From the NCBI RefSeq assembly GCF_900156475.1, contig NZ_FTNR01000001.1, positions 124,001 to 188,000 on the forward strand: 64,000 nt of DNA, in the 5' to 3' direction. The notes beneath the pieces were generated by a model. It had not been told where the DNA came from, did no database searches, and was given only the letters and a program-made list of their open reading frames with translations. The translations under genes and the position numbers were made by a program. Below, one piece after another: positions 19,112-45,080 of the stretch. Within the stretch, counting starts at the first letter, position 1; every line of letters starts with the position of its first letter. This DNA comes from Natronorubrum thiooxidans. GTDB taxonomy: Archaea > Halobacteriota > Halobacteria > Halobacteriales > Natrialbaceae.

Positions 19112-20302
19112 CTAGTGTTGTGAGTCGGTTGGAAGCGGTTCGTCGCGTAGGCAGGCGGCCAGGAGCGCAACTCGGTCAACGAGGGCATCGAGTTTCACGT
19201 ACTCGTAGGTCTGGTGAGCCCCGTCACCGACCGCGCCGAAGCCGTCGATCGTGGGCGCGTGCTGGCTGGCGTCGTTCCCATCGCTTGCTCCACCCGAGCG
19301 CGTCCCCTCGAGCGAGAGTCCGAGTCGGTCTCCGAGTGTCTGGACACGCTCCCAGAGCAGGCGATTGCCCGCCGTCGGCTCCATCGGCGGCCGCCCGAAC
19401 CCGCCGTCGATCGTCAGTTCGGTGCCCGGCGTCGTCGCCTCGAGCGAGCGGATCTGCTCCTCGACGGCCTCGGCTGCCTCGTCGGTGGGTGCGCGAACGT
19501 CGACTTCGGCTCGCGCGTCCGGTGCGACGACGTTCGACCGCAGCCCCGCTTCCACCTGCCCGACGTTCACGGTGACACCCGAGTCGATGTCGGTGAGTTC
19601 GTGGAGCCGATGGATGACGGTGCCGAGTTCCTCCGTCGCGCTGGCCCCCTCCTCTGGCTCGAGGCCGGCGTGGGCGGCCTTCCCCTCGATCGTGACCGTA
19701 AAGTGGCCGACCGCTTTCCGTGCGGTCTTGATCTTCCCCTCCGGACCGCTTGCCGGCTCGAGCACGAACACGCGGTTCGCTTGCTTGGCGAGCTCGATGA
19801 TCCGGGACTTGGATTCGGGGCTCCCGACCTCTTCGTCGCTCGAAACGAGGACGTGAACCGGTAGTGACGGCTCGAGTGAGAGGTCCTCGAGCGCACGGAG
19901 TGCGAAGACGGCCTGTGTCAGCCCACCTTTCATATCGAGCGCGCCCGGGCCCTCGAGGACGTCGTCCCGAACCTCCGGTGGGTCCTCCTCGACGGTTCCC
20001 AGCGGCCAGACGGTGTCCGCGTGCCCGATTATTAGCTGAATCTCGTCGGCGTCGTCCCGACCCGGCGTCCACGCCTCGATCCGACCGCCAGTCTCCTCGC
20101 CCGGAACGCGCTCGGTCTCCAGGCCGATCTCGTGGACGTCGTTCGCCAGCCGATCGAAGAAGGCGTCGAACGTTTCTGGATTCTCCGTCGGTGTCTCCAT
20201 CTCGACGAACTCGAGGAGGTACTGTGCGAGCTCTTTGCGGTGTGCGTGTGCCCACTCCTGAATCCGCTGTTCGGCGGCGGATTCCGGTTCCGACGCAGTC
20301 AT
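19112..20302 (-). CDS. M20-family metallo-hydrolase (carboxypeptidase/deacylase)
   Basis: 396 aa. Zinc-site motifs of the M20 clan: GHADTVWP (His/Asp ligands), GPGALDMKGG with the bridging Asp, and SSDEEVGS with the catalytic and ligand Glu pair. A dimerisation lid domain follows (about 190-300), and a late His ligand is expected near DGFGAVGDGAHQ. It resembles glutamate carboxypeptidase/CPG2. Cytoplasmic. The start overlaps the flavin-reductase stop by 4 bp, so the two are co-translated. Confidence 0.88.
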   Translation of the reverse strand: MTASEPESAAEQRIQEWAHAHRKELAQYLLEFVEMETPTENPETFDAFFDRLANDVHEIGLETERVPGEETGGRIEAWTPGRDDADEIQLIIGHADTVWPLGTVEEDPPEVRDDVLEGPGALDMKGGLTQAVFALRALEDLSLEPSLPVHVLVSSDEEVGSPESKSRIIELAKQANRVFVLEPASGPEGKIKTARKAVGHFTVTIEGKAAHAGLEPEEGASATEELGTVIHRLHELTDIDSGVTVNVGQVEAGLRSNVVAPDARAEVDVRAPTDEAAEAVEEQIRSLEATTPGTELTIDGGFGRPPMEPTAGNRLLWERVQTLGDRLGLSLEGTRSGGASDGNDASQHAPTIDGFGAVGDGAHQTYEYVKLDALVDRVALLAACLRDEPLPTDSQH

Positions 20303-20904
20303 CGCTCGAAGCCCTCCGGGAACGGGAACGCCTGGCTCTCGCTAACTGCAGCGAACCGGTCGGGATAGAGGTGTGCAAGCACTGGCGCTTGCTCGAGCAG
20401 CGTCTCGGGCTCGGCGTCGTCGCTGCGGTAGGCGTCGGTGTGCACGTGCTTTTCGACGACACTGCCCGTGATGAGTTCGCCATCGTCGAACGCGACGATT
20501 CGCTCGAGGTCACACTCCAGCACGCCGTAGGCCCCAGCCACGGCGGGCGCGTCGACGGCGTCGGCGTCGACCGTGTCGATTTCTGTTAGTGAGGGTTTGT
20601 CACCCTCGGCGCCCCGGGGTGCCGCGGCGAGGCTGGCGTCGAGGATGTCTTCGGGCCGCGGATAGCTGACGGTGAACGCTCCCGTCCGCTCGACGTTCCG
20701 ATACGTCCCGTGTTCGGGCGTACAGACGAAGCCGAACTGGTTTGCCCACCCGAGCGGCATCGCCATGTGTTTCGGCGCAAGGTTTTCCGAGCCGTCTTCG
20801 TCACGCGTTCCGACGATCACCAGCGGAGCCGCCGTGTACAGCGTCTCGAAAAACGACTGCTCCGGCTGTAGCGTGATGAGGTCAGGATTATTCGAGAGGG
20901 ACAT
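20299..20904 (-). CDS. Flavin reductase-like (FMN-binding split barrel) protein
   Basis: 201 aa. The N-terminal half has the split-barrel pattern of FMN-dependent flavin reductases: PLVIVGTRDEDGSENLAPKHMAMP, then FGFVCTPEHGTYRNVERTGAFTVS. The second half continues with GVLECDLERIVAF and GSVVEKHVH. It probably binds FMN and reduces flavin or a small substrate with NAD(P)H. First gene of the unit ending at 18095; the gene order suggests a short catabolic pathway, but no substrate is evident. Confidence 0.8.
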   Translation of the reverse strand: MSLSNNPDLITLQPEQSFFETLYTAAPLVIVGTRDEDGSENLAPKHMAMPLGWANQFGFVCTPEHGTYRNVERTGAFTVSYPRPEDILDASLAAAPRGAEGDKPSLTEIDTVDADAVDAPAVAGAYGVLECDLERIVAFDDGELITGSVVEKHVHTDAYRSDDAEPETLLEQAPVLAHLYPDRFAAVSESQAFPFPEGFER

Positions 20905-40142: not shown

Positions 40143-41240
40143 ATGACGACCCCAGAGGCACGAGAAGAGGCGGTACTCGAGGCGGTCCGCAAGCGCCGCG
40201 AGCTGGTCAACGAGGCCATCCCAGACGCATTGCCGATCCAGCCACCAGAGCGACTCTACGAAGCGTCGCGATACCTCCTGGACGCCGGCGGCAAGCGGCT
40301 CCGACCCACCGTCTTGCTCACAACGGCAGAAGCGCTCGCGGACGTCGAGCCGCTCTCGGAAGACTACCATGCGTTTCCCACCCTCGATGGGGAGCGCGCG
40401 GAACCACGTTCCGCGGATAGTTCGAGCGGCCCGCCGCGAGACACGATCGACATCATGGACGCCGCCGTCAGCGTCGAAGTCATCCAGTCGTTTACCCTCA
40501 TCCACGACGACATCATGGACGACGACGACCTTCGGCGCGGTGTTCCTGCCGTCCACAAGGAGTACGACCTCGAGACCGCGATTCTCGCCGGCGATACGCT
40601 CTACTCGAAAGCCTTCGAGATCATGCTCGAGACTGGCGCGAAACCCGAGCGCGCGGTCGAAGCGCTCGAGATCCTCGCGACGACGTGCACGAAGATCTGT
40701 GAGGGCCAATCGCTCGACGTCACCTTCGAGAACCGCGCCGAGGTCTCACCGGACGAGTACCTCGAGATGGTCGAGCAGAAAACAGCTGTCCTGTACGCTG
40801 CCTCGGCCAGTCTCCCCGCAATCCTGCTCGGCGCTGACGACGAGACGATCGACGCGCTATACGGCTACGGACTCGACATCGGCCGTGCGTTCCAGATTCA
40901 AGACGACGTGCTCGATCTGACCGTCCCAAGCGAGAAACTCGGCAAACAGCGCGGCAGCGACTTAGTCGAGAACAAACAGACGCTGATCACCGTCCACGCC
41001 CGCAGTCAGGGCGTCGACATCGAAGGGCTGGTCGATACGGACGACGTCGACGCTGTCACCGAAGCCGAGATCGACGACGCCGTCGCCGAACTCGAAGCCG
41101 CCGGCTCGATCAGTTACGCAAACGAAACGGCCCAAGAGCTGGTCGAACAGGGCAAAGCCCGACTCGAGGTTCTTCCGGACAACGAAGCCCGCGATCTGCT
41201 CTGTGAGATTGCGGACTACCTGATCGAACGCGGCTACTAA
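40143..41240 (+). CDS. idsA: Polyprenyl synthase (geranylgeranyl diphosphate synthase)
   Basis: 365 aa from ATG 40143. Trans-isoprenyl diphosphate synthase with first Asp-rich motif LIHDDIMDDDDLRRG and second motif FQIQDDVLD; the residue before the first motif sets product length. Makes the C20 chain for archaeal ether lipids. An acidic 25-residue insert (about 75-98) is a halophilic elaboration. It follows rnj by 1 bp and uses IPP made by the kinases about 3 kb upstream. Confidence 0.93.
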   Translation: MTTPEAREEAVLEAVRKRRELVNEAIPDALPIQPPERLYEASRYLLDAGGKRLRPTVLLTTAEALADVEPLSEDYHAFPTLDGERAEPRSADSSSGPPRDTIDIMDAAVSVEVIQSFTLIHDDIMDDDDLRRGVPAVHKEYDLETAILAGDTLYSKAFEIMLETGAKPERAVEALEILATTCTKICEGQSLDVTFENRAEVSPDEYLEMVEQKTAVLYAASASLPAILLGADDETIDALYGYGLDIGRAFQIQDDVLDLTVPSEKLGKQRGSDLVENKQTLITVHARSQGVDIEGLVDTDDVDAVTEAEIDDAVAELEAAGSISYANETAQELVEQGKARLEVLPDNEARDLLCEIADYLIERGY

Positions 41241-41476: not shown

Positions 41477-42673
41477 CTAGATCGACTTGCAGGCTTTGAG
41501 CACGAGTTCCGGATTGTCGACGAGTTCGTGAATCGTGTGTGCACCTTTTCCATGGCCGCGTCCTTTCCGGGTCTGTTCGATAATCGAGAGGAACGCCAGT
41601 TCGCTGAGCAACTCACGGACGCGTCGGATTCGAAGCGGGTCAGAGCCCTCCTGTTCGCAGAGCACTTCGTACGTCGAGTAGATGTCCGCCGTCGGAATCG
41701 CCGGGTCGTCGTCGGGTGCCTGTTGGGTCCGGAACGCAAGCGCCTGCAAGAGGAGTTTCGAATGGGGTGGTTGTTTCGAGATGAGTTCGGCCAGCCGGTT
41801 TTGCTCTTCTCGAGTATGCGCTTGATTGACGTGTTCTTCGGTAACGGTTTCTGCCCCGTTCTCGTCGGCGATCTCGCCGGCGTAGCGGAGAATGTCGATC
41901 GCCTTGCGCGCGTCGCCGTGTTCTTTCGCGGCCAGCGCTGCCACGCGTGGGATAACCGAGTCCTCGAGGACGCCATCCTGGAACGCGTCTTTGCGCGACT
42001 CGAGAATCGCCCTGAGCTGGTTCGCGTCGTATGGTGGGAAGACGTAATCCCGTTCGCTCAGGCTAGATTTGACGCGCTCGTTGAGTTCTTCTTTGTACCG
42101 GATCTTGTTACTGATCCCGATAATCCCGAGCGTGCTCTCCTCGAGTTTCCCGGATTCGACGGCTCGAGAGAGTTGCATCAGGATGTTGTCGTCGCCGATC
42201 TTGTCGACCTCGTCTAAGATGATGATTCCGACGTCGAACCGACCGTCGAGGACGTTCCAGAGCCGGCGATAGTACTCGCCCGTGCTCAGCCCGGAGGCAG
42301 GAATCGTGATCCCTGTCTCCGCTTCGTCGTTGAGTTCGCGGGCGATCGTCCGCACTGCCTGTGTCTCCGTCGCGTGCTGGAGACAGTCGATATAGGCGAC
42401 GCCGATCGAGACGTCGTTTTTCGCGGCGCTCGAGCGGAGGTCCTTCGTAATATACTTCGAGCAGAGCGATTTCCCCGTTCCCGTTTTGCCGTAGATCAGA
42501 ACGTGATTCGGCGTCTGTCCCTGAACGGCGTCTTTGAGTGCCTGTGCGAGACTGTTGAGTTCGTCCTGTCGGCCGATGATCCGATCACCTTCGACGAGAT
42601 GTGAGATGCGAAGCAGATCCTTGTTCGCGAAGATGTAGTTTTGATTGTCGAAAAACGACTCTGAACCGGACAT
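41477..42673 (-). CDS. orc: Orc1/Cdc6 replication initiator
   Basis: 398 aa. An AAA+ ATPase with Walker A GKTGTGKS (62-69) and Walker B ILDEVDK (D154, E155, D157). The sensor region is GISNKIRYKEEL, and a winged-helix domain is at the C-terminus (about 305-398). It binds origin DNA and loads MCM. A TATA-like sequence on the minus strand (complement of about 42691-42703) implies a leaderless start at 42673. The start faces the repeat-rich region at 42674-43349, the usual place for its own origin. Confidence 0.93.
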   Translation of the reverse strand: MSGSESFFDNQNYIFANKDLLRISHLVEGDRIIGRQDELNSLAQALKDAVQGQTPNHVLIYGKTGTGKSLCSKYITKDLRSSAAKNDVSIGVAYIDCLQHATETQAVRTIARELNDEAETGITIPASGLSTGEYYRRLWNVLDGRFDVGIIILDEVDKIGDDNILMQLSRAVESGKLEESTLGIIGISNKIRYKEELNERVKSSLSERDYVFPPYDANQLRAILESRKDAFQDGVLEDSVIPRVAALAAKEHGDARKAIDILRYAGEIADENGAETVTEEHVNQAHTREEQNRLAELISKQPPHSKLLLQALAFRTQQAPDDDPAIPTADIYSTYEVLCEQEGSDPLRIRRVRELLSELAFLSIIEQTRKGRGHGKGAHTIHELVDNPELVLKACKSI

Positions 42674-42713
42674 ACGTCGGCAATATCCGAGTGGCTACTT
42701 AACGCTAACTCCT

Positions 42714-42878
42714 CAGTGCCGATGTAAACACACCGCAGTGCCGATGTAAATTTGTAAAACAACGGTCTCAGTCATTATGGGTGGGTTTTGTCTACTCCCC
42801 AGTGCCAGTGTAACTGGACCGGAGTGCCAGTGTAACGCGGTAGGACGGAACACACCCACCCCGGAGTGCCGATGTAAC
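42714..42878. repeat. Five direct copies of a 15-bp origin-like element
   Basis: Copies start at 42714, 42736, 42800, 42822 and 42864. They read (C/G)AGTGCC then GA or AG, then TGTAA(A/C). Start-to-start distances are 22, 64, 22 and 42 bp, close to 2, 6, 2 and 4 helical turns. On the other strand each reads TTTACATCGGCACTC or GTTACACTGGCACTG, usually followed by a G-run, the layout of archaeal origin recognition boxes. Confidence 0.85.
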
Positions 42879-42979
42879 TGTTCCGAACGTGTCCACGAGA
42901 AACGCTGGGGAGACGGATGTAGCAACGTGGAACCGAACGGAAAGCCGGAAGACGAGTCACACGCGTTTCGGCTGGACAC

Positions 42980-42999
42980 GTTGTGACCAACGTCACAAC
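42980..42999. repeat. Inverted repeat in the origin region
   Basis: GTTGTGAC, 4-bp centre CAAC, GTCACAAC: a perfect 8-bp inverted repeat 40 bp before the AT-rich core. Confidence 0.7.
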
Positions 43000-43132
43000 T
43001 CAACGGCTGTGACTCTCGTATGACCGATATCGAAGGTCCATTATTTATATGCTTTGGTATCGCTGTATAATGTCCGTCGAGCGAGATCACTATTTGACCG
43101 TTAGAATCGCTGTTGGGCTCACTCTCGGACGA

Positions 43133-43147
43133 TTTACATCGGCACTC
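43133..43147 (-). repeat. Sixth, inverted copy of the 15-bp element
   Basis: TTTACATCGGCACTC, the reverse complement of the copies at 42714-42878. It is followed by CGGGGTG, matching the flank of the copy at 42864 on the other strand. With the direct copies it brackets the AT-rich core. Confidence 0.85.
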
Positions 43148-43148
43148 C

Positions 43149-43196
43149 GGGGTGTGTCTGCCCCATTTGGACTGGGGTGTGTCTGCCCCACTTGGA
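43149..43196 (+). repeat. Two tandem 23-bp repeats
   Basis: GGGGTGTGTCTGCCCCA followed by YTTGGA, starting at 43149 and 43174 (25 bp apart). Each is itself a small GGGG-loop-CCCC hairpin. Confidence 0.8.
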
Positions 43197-43239
43197 TATG
43201 CAGTGAACCGCTCTCGAATATGCAGTGATCCATTTTCGA
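43196..43239 (+). repeat. Two tandem ATATGCAGTG repeats
   Basis: ATATGCAGTGA then W and CC, ending in TCGA, at 43196-43217 and 43218-43239 (22 bp apart). They follow the 23-bp repeats directly. Confidence 0.7.
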
Positions 43240-43349
43240 ACGTTCTCGAGTAGAACACCGCTGTAGCTGTCAGCAATTCGGCTCTCGAGCACCGCTTGCT
43301 CAAGCAAACATCGCGGAGGTTTTGGTTCGGGGCCGAATACGTCTCGGTA

Positions 43350-45080
43350 ATGAACGACGAGTTACGAGAGCGCGTCGAGCGCGAGGCAGAGAAGCACGCG
43401 CTGTTGAACGCCGTCAAACACGAGAGCGATGCCGACGTCGGCGCGATCATGGGGCCGCTGATGGGCGACAATCCCGAGTTCCGCGAGCACGGCGACGAGA
43501 TCCCAGGGATCGCCGGCGGCGTCATCGGTCGGGTCAACGACCTCGACTACGAGGAAAAACGGGCGCGACTCGAGGACCTCGCCCCCGAGGAGCTCGCCGA
43601 AATCGAAGCCGAAGACGAGGCAGACGAACACGACCTGCCGGAGCTGCCGAACGCCGACGAGTACGATGACATCCGCATGCGGTGTGCACCGAACCCGAAC
43701 GGGCCGTGGCACGTCGGCCACGCACGGATGCCCGCCGTCATCGGCACCTATCGCGAGCGCTACGACGGCTGGTTCTGCGTCCGCTTCGACGACACCGACC
43801 CTGAAACGAAACGACCGGATCTCGAGGCCTACGACGCGATCCTCGAGGATCTGGACTATCTCGGTTTCGAACCCGACGAGGTCTATCGGGCCAGCGACCG
43901 ACTCGAGACCTACTACGACCACGCCCGCGAGCTGATCGAGATGGGCGGGGCTTACACCTGCTCCTGTAGCGGCGAGGAGTTTAGTGAGCTGAAAAACGCC
44001 GGCGAGCCGTGTCCACACCGCGACAAAGACGTCGAGACCGTCCTCGAGGAGTTCGAGGACATGATCGACGGCGCATACAGCAGTGGCAAGATGGTTCTCC
44101 GCGTGAAGACCGACATCGAGCACAAGAACCCCGCGCTACGCGACTGGGTCGCGTTCCGGATGATCGACACGCCTCATCCCCGAGAGGAGGCCAGCGAGTA
44201 CCGCTGCTGGCCGATGCTCGACTTCCAGTCGGGTGTCGACGACCACCTGCTCGGGATGACCCATATCATCCGCGGGATCGACTTGCAGGACTCCGCGAAA
44301 CGCCAGCAGTTCGTCTACGACTACTTCGGCTGGGAGTACCCGGAAGTCGTCCACTGGGGCCACGTCCAACTCGACGACTACGACGTGAAGATGAGCACCT
44401 CGACCATCTCGGAACTGATCAACCAAGGCGACCTCGACGGCTGGGACGACCCACGCGCGCCGACACTCAAGAGTCTTCGCCGACGTGGCATCCGCGGCGA
44501 GGCCATCGTTGACTCGATGGTCGAACTGGGGACGTCGACCAGCGACGTCGATCTCGCGCTGAGTGCGATCTACTCGAACAACCGCGAGTTGATCGACGAC
44601 GAGACTGACCGTCGATTCTTCGTCCGCGAGGGCACTGAACTCCCCCTCAGCGGTAGCCCACCGGCGGAAGCCAACCCGCAGCTGCACCCCAACCACGAAG
44701 AGCGCGGCGTCCGGGAGATCCCATCCGGCGACGCCGTCTTGCTCGAGCCCGGCGACATTCCGGCAGCCGAGGACCGTATCTGGCTCAAGGGTCTCGGCTG
44801 CTTCGAGTACACCGGCGACTCGCTTGCATACACCGGCGACGACATCGACGTGGTCCGAGAGGGTGACGTCGACGTCATCCACTGGGTGCCCGCCATAGAG
44901 AGCGTTCCCGTCCGGCTACGCACGATCGATGGCGACGTGACCGGCCGAGCCGAACCCGGCGTCGGTGCCCTCGAGGCCGACGAACTGGTCCAGTTCGAAC
45001 GGGTCGGTTTCGCGAGGATCGACCGCCACGAGAACGACGACGGGACGAAAACGACTGTCGCCTACTACACCCACCCCTGA
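43350..45080 (+). CDS. gltX: Glutamyl-tRNA synthetase, archaeal type
   Basis: 576 aa. Class I synthetase of the archaeal/eukaryotic GluRS/GlnRS type. ATP-site HIGH motif is HVGH (121-124) in PNGPWHVGHAR; KMSKS is KMSTS (347-351). The N-terminal 100 residues are a haloarchaeal helical extension; the beta-barrel anticodon-binding region is C-terminal. In haloarchaea this enzyme usually charges both tRNA-Glu and tRNA-Gln, with later amidation by GatDE. The ATG at 43350 is the first before the conserved MNDELRERVEREAEKHAL helix. Confidence 0.95.
   Translation: MNDELRERVEREAEKHALLNAVKHESDADVGAIMGPLMGDNPEFREHGDEIPGIAGGVIGRVNDLDYEEKRARLEDLAPEELAEIEAEDEADEHDLPELPNADEYDDIRMRCAPNPNGPWHVGHARMPAVIGTYRERYDGWFCVRFDDTDPETKRPDLEAYDAILEDLDYLGFEPDEVYRASDRLETYYDHARELIEMGGAYTCSCSGEEFSELKNAGEPCPHRDKDVETVLEEFEDMIDGAYSSGKMVLRVKTDIEHKNPALRDWVAFRMIDTPHPREEASEYRCWPMLDFQSGVDDHLLGMTHIIRGIDLQDSAKRQQFVYDYFGWEYPEVVHWGHVQLDDYDVKMSTSTISELINQGDLDGWDDPRAPTLKSLRRRGIRGEAIVDSMVELGTSTSDVDLALSAIYSNNRELIDDETDRRFFVREGTELPLSGSPPAEANPQLHPNHEERGVREIPSGDAVLLEPGDIPAAEDRIWLKGLGCFEYTGDSLAYTGDDIDVVREGDVDVIHWVPAIESVPVRLRTIDGDVTGRAEPGVGALEADELVQFERVGFARIDRHENDDGTKTTVAYYTHP

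Follow-up and report, generated by a model that had tools for sequence, protein, structure and literature searches.

The closest described systems are the haloarchaeal replication origins that adjoin orc/cdc6 genes (Wu et al. 2012, PMC3528665). In these an orc gene is accompanied by intergenic origin recognition boxes (ORBs) that carry a G-string and are inverted about an AT-rich region, the ORB sequence is tied to the Orc family, and the distribution is a mosaic with gain and loss. Orc-specific boxes have been published for 15 haloarchaea (PMC3528665). At oriC1 and oriC2 of Haloarcula hispanica the origin depends on its own cdc6 gene, and the ORBs enclose an inverted repeat that is not itself an ORB (PMC3936714); in oriC1 this repeat is G-rich and enhances the origin (Wu et al. 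2014, PMC3936714). Sulfolobus oriC1 has a conserved non-ORB motif, ucm, with the protein UBP, near the core between inverted ORBs (PMC12141716). The dormant origins of Haloferax mediterranei also have orc-linked inverted ORBs and a patchy distribution, patchy presence being the published pattern of such origins (PMC4595724).

The locus described here has at least two ORBs, some of them inverted, around an AT-rich element in the intergenic region directly adjoining an orc1/cdc6 gene, and its ORB sequence is specific to its Orc family. ORB, G-string and inverted layout agree with the published origins (PMC3528665, PMC3936714). We consider it very probable that the locus is an Orc1/Cdc6-dependent replication origin, and from its sequence we place the module (the orc gene and its boxes) among the Orc-adjacent, Orc-specific origins of Wu et al. 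2012. It differs from them in its ORB, a variant that is not printed in the main texts with which it was compared; the box sequence also gave no match in a paper search. New here are this variant of the box, an instance of origin turnover that is well documented, and a conserved element distinct from the ORBs.

An orc gene with six boxes

The window, the whole stretch of 64,000 nucleotides that was analysed, is C22:124001-188000 of a 4.2-Mb haloarchaeal assembly. The orc1/cdc6 initiator gene (41477-42673, minus strand) is intact and encodes 398 amino acids with a Walker A motif GKTGTGKS, a Walker B motif LDEVD and a C-terminal winged helix. Its product matches TIGR02928 with 423 bits against a cut-off of 181, which bears out the adjoining Orc1/Cdc6 gene of the initial annotation. 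The chromosomal flanks of the module are an idsA-type prenyl synthase gene, named from sequence and synteny (40143-41240, plus strand), and gltX (43353-45080, plus strand), on whose side homology to module-free genomes begins at about 43303. In Natronorubrum bangense the equivalent locus sits on the 3.08-Mb chromosome.

The initial annotation had reported six copies of a 15-bp element next to the orc gene, and all six are exact copies of SAGTGCCRRTGTAAM. Five are on the plus strand, at 42714-42728, 42736-42750, 42800-42814, 42822-42836 and 42864-42878, the sixth is inverted at 43133-43147 on the minus strand. The window contains 7 matches with up to two mismatches, a count that dinucleotide shuffles never reach (mean 0.69, maximum 3). 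The exact 13-base core AGTGCCNNTGTAA occurs at 8 sites in the whole genome, 6 of them in the module; of the other two, one is on contig C47, at the origin of a paralogous orc, and one on C30. Apart from the C30 site every exact copy is orc-adjacent, so the element is not scattered through the genome away from orc genes.

On the opposite strand the box reads as an ORB, GTTACA(TC/CT)GGCACTCCGGGGTG, and in its longer form GTTACA-(TC or CT)-GGCACT-N-CGGGGTG its core resembles a dyad and leads into the G-string of haloarchaeal ORBs. At least GG is present at the expected place in all six copies. The earlier description of most copies as followed by G-runs is slightly generous, because only three have four consecutive G (GGGG at 42800, CCGGGGTG at 42864 and 43133); the G-string is clear in copies 3, 5 and 6 and weak in copies 1, 2 and 4. 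With the full G-string copy 5 spans 42857-42878 (CACCCCGGAGTGCCGATGTAAC) and copy 6 spans 43133-43154, where the plus strand reads TTTACATCGGCACTCCGGGGTG. On either flank of the AT-rich core the G sides face outwards, that of copy 1, whose ORB reads on the minus strand, pointing towards orc and that of copy 6 away from the core. Copies 3 and 4 have the centre AG. A duplicated GGGGTGTGTCTGCCCCA(C/T)TTGGA is found at 43148-43200 beside the far ORB, within a 47-bp stretch that is missing in relatives.

The element had also been described as unlike the common haloarchaeal ORB. Its sequence is indeed a variant, but it is related to the ORBs of sister families. From these likenesses we read the 15-bp element as that portion of a longer ORB which is conserved, kin to the plasmid and chromosomal boxes of those families, and therefore as a variant of known ORBs and not as something unrelated to them.

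Sister Orc families and box centres

A tree of 45 Orcs has four well-supported clades, in which the window clade W pairs with P as its sister and is separate from C. Clade P, a 70% family, occurs elsewhere in the order, in other families, where its members are mostly on plasmids or small contigs. The two bases at the box centre are TC, CT or CC in 42 of 44 clade W boxes (TC 28, CT 10, CC 4, GC 1, AC 1), against GC in 206 of 211 boxes of the sister clades (P 106/107, C 81/81, H 19/23), these counts coming from related sequences that are not independent. On the simplest reading the centre would have changed on the W stem. Winged-helix residues specific to W include R348, E354 and H374 of the wing, which are candidates only for residues that determine specificity.

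The genome itself contains about 20 Orc-sized matches to TIGR02928. A repeat search around each of these orc genes gave at least 12 with a repeated box of their own, most with a G-run, and the boxes differ between orcs; Orc-specific boxes are therefore the rule in this genome. Some of the orc genes have boxes on both sides (L002, L006, L007). The closest paralogue of the window Orc is on C47, and its origin has nine boxes (A/T)TACAGCGG(C/A)A that share the G-string of the window ORB. Two Orcs that are 65% identical (C22, C47) and have related but distinguishable boxes thus share one cell, and an exchange of the two bases at the box centre would put the specificity of initiator for box to the test. 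Origins of the C47 type (L011, L062-L070) have up to nine boxes, mostly 32 and 63-64 bp apart, one of which adjoins a conserved stretch similar to TTCCTATAGAAATCCTTTTCAATC.

Conservation, gain and loss of the module

The five direct boxes form an array 40-205 bp upstream of the orc start, with start-to-start gaps of 22, 64, 22 and 42 bp, as first described. The helical phasing claimed for them holds: at 10.5 bp the phase statistic R is 0.95 here, against 0.62 and 0.69 in two sister clades and 0.08 in clade P, values that pool related loci and are descriptive. Repeated spacings in the sister clades are 32 and 63-64 bp in C and 21-22 and 63-64 bp in H. Since the plasmid clade P is unphased, phasing is not required across the whole family.

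The spacing is conserved in relatives. In an alignment of eight module copies, those of G101, G102 (N. bangense), G107 (N. sulfidifaciens) and G109 and both of G073 (Natrinema sp. SYSU A 869) are free of indels across the 165-bp array, while in the Natrinema copies the spacers have only 51-53% identity to the window, against 84% for the boxes. Selection thus appears to maintain the near-integer helical spacing. Elsewhere in the module, in its middle and far parts, 10-12 bp have been inserted and 42-54 bp deleted, and in the G098 copy box 5 is preceded by an insertion of 56 bp. Box 1 is degenerate in G073 and G098, and box 4 is altered in G109.

The window Orc is 99-100% identical to the Orcs of N. 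bangense and N. sulfidifaciens, whereas gltX is only 92-93% identical, so that the window genome probably represents a Natronorubrum species distinct from these two. Synonymous and amino-acid differences in orc number 96/0 against G101, 90/1 against G107 and 95/3 against G102, the corresponding synonymous and nonsynonymous counts for gltX are 108/56, 120/54 and 122/51, and those for the C47 paralogue are 86/3 and 73/5. Among close carriers pN/pS is 0 to 0.01 for the window Orc against 0.010-0.021 for the chromosomal C47 paralogue. These ratios indicate that the window Orc is under extreme purifying selection.

Searched for beside orthologous orc genes, the boxes accompany the window Orc clade in every genome that carries it. 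The clade is present in seven of 125 family genomes, the window genome among them, and the same seven are the only ones with paired boxes; with so narrow a distribution, identity with oriC1, the universal haloarchaeal origin, was rejected. In four other Natronorubrum genomes, G101, G102, G107 and G109, the module lies between idsA and gltX (in G107 as judged from the adjacency of gltX and orc). G073 carries it twice, on megaplasmids of 881 kb and 891 kb, and G098, which represents a third genus, has an 84% version; boxes are present at all eight module copies.

The boxes might in principle be chance or composition-driven repeats without function, a reading to which we give practically no weight: their number exceeds that in shuffled sequence, they are confined within the genome, the array is conserved and the module is found in three genera. 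The initial annotation had proposed an origin with an initiator-specific box of its own. Comparison lends this support, as the boxes co-occur with the Orc clade, their spacing is kept and they differ in a clade-specific manner.

In four further Natronorubrum genomes (G103, G104, G106 and G108) idsA and gltX are present but the module is missing, and the junction contains no box in five genomes of other genera. G105 retains a relic (L082:3141-3340) in which 119 bp from the 3' end of orc survive at 87% with a single gap; a perfect far box, its G-string included, comes next, followed by gltX. In a gltX tree, which is that of a single gene with poor resolution, the carrier G109 groups with G108, which lacks the module (99/97), and not with the remaining carriers. 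The simplest reading of these sequences is an old insertion at the idsA-gltX junction that would have been followed by repeated loss; the module may also have arrived separately in G109. With the module intact, decayed or absent at one chromosomal site in one genus, the junction provides a clean case of origin turnover.

Such patchiness within the genus and the decaying copy in G105 are also what would be seen if the origin, with all its parts working, were a dormant or backup one, silent in normal growth as other origins dominate in a cell with about 20 orc genes. The patchy and recently acquired oriC4 of Haloferax mediterranei fires only after the main origins have been deleted (PMC4595724). 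We hold dormancy, which is a sub-case of the origin reading, to be possible but with rather less than an even chance, the pN/pS of the window Orc, no higher than that of the C47 paralogue, arguing for steady use or another selected role. GC skew and gene orientation around the module gave no signal in the window genome (G000) and N. bangense, and leading/lagging GC3 skew did not shift there (p 0.87 and 0.84) in a test of little power. A cumulative-skew minimum in N. bangense 14 kb from the module was set aside, as it is not common to G000 and the leading/lagging comparison is not significant there.

The AT-rich core and the elements beside it

The AT-rich core that had been noticed between the direct and inverted copies is real. 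AT content is 69% at 43038-43072, against 47% in the region and 38.5% in the window, and the core, a probable duplex unwinding element, includes a conserved TTATTTATA.KCTTTGG at 43041-43057. Between box 5 and the core is a non-ORB palindrome GTTGTGAC-CAAC-GTCACAAC (42980-42999), and between palindrome and core is a conserved non-ORB block GTGACTCTCGTATGACCGATA (43009-43029). The core arms of the palindrome, TGTGAC/GTCACA, are intact in every module copy except that of G098, and its centre varies. With 0-1 mismatch the block occurs solely at window-type modules among the 125 family genomes; three weaker matches elsewhere that were inspected have no box cluster and no palindrome. In the Natronorubrum and Natrinema copies all three elements are conserved about as well as the boxes.

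The position of the array, directly upstream of orc, would also suit boxes that serve mainly as an autoregulatory operator of the gene or as a site that titrates Orc, and a Cdc6-titrating ORB-rich region is known at oriC2D of H. hispanica (PMC3936714). An operator has no need of an inverted far copy, nor of a palindrome and an AT-rich core that are conserved at a distance of 300-480 bp, and the sole intact box surviving in the G105 relic is the far one; we regard an operator or titration site in place of an origin as very unlikely.

If the locus works as an origin, Orc from the adjoining gene would bind the six ORBs, five in the phased array by its own start and one inverted beyond the core. 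Bound Orc would bracket the AT-rich core, which may then melt and be loaded with the MCM helicase. With the boxes of the array spaced on one face of the helix, several Orc monomers could be aligned, and the box centre would set specificity against related Orcs of the same cell. Because boxes 1 and 2 abut the orc start, Orc probably also damps its own expression. The orc gene and its origin would together be a replicon module, at home on megaplasmids as well as at the chromosomal idsA/gltX site, and in the course of being lost in some species.

The non-ORB elements have partial likenesses in described origins. The inverted repeat of the window, GTTGTGAC-N4-GTCACAAC, is not G-rich, unlike that of H. 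hispanica oriC1. The Sulfolobus ucm lies midway in the core whereas the palindrome lies beside it, the likeness being positional only. The plasmid-type clade P has an 84-base element with a hairpin at the matching place, about 215-480 bp upstream of orc (L044-L059, L105-L109). Its hairpin arms covary: five of seven pairs have changed on both sides with 88% paired, and 16 both-side-change cells compare with 4.0 +/- 1.5 after shuffling, slid versions being worse; these are pair counts for one chosen hairpin. Pair counts for an alternative hairpin were not positive, RNAalifold predicted no consensus structure for the element, and Rfam gave no match to five origin loci at E values up to 1. This covariation can mean an RNA hairpin, a DNA hairpin or the site of a dimeric protein with changed recognition.

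The covariance model built from the clade P element (R1) has a single match per genome in 14 clade P genomes, each at orc by coordinates; as these copies are the training set of the model, the informative part is the absence of further copies. Since R1 does not detect the palindrome of the window, the kinship of the two elements is only positional, with common descent unproven. A more speculative idea, which we think somewhat unlikely to hold, is that origins of this Orc group have a second required element, a palindrome or hairpin located between the ORB array and the AT-rich core and variable in sequence with its pairing kept, and that this would serve melting or helicase loading as a counterpart of the Sulfolobus ucm, or encode a small structured RNA, and also mark origins that have no orc. 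The conserved non-ORB element at least raises the testable question of what more an archaeal origin needs.

In the window genome itself the clade P model matches C29:20123-20205 (E 4e-7), in a locus of about 19630-20520 (L118) with no adjacent orc. The stem sequence of this hairpin differs from the plasmid type and the pairing is kept. The element is flanked by inverted copies of ATTCTATGCGGCGGCACTCCGGGGTG inside 97-bp inverted repeats (95%), and the right half of the ATTCTATGCGGCGGCACTCCGGGGTG box, GGCACTCCGGGGTG, is identical to the window ORB. Because an orc-less locus with inverted ORB-like boxes carries the element, this arrangement suggests that the hairpin is a component of origins and has no part in the expression of orc.
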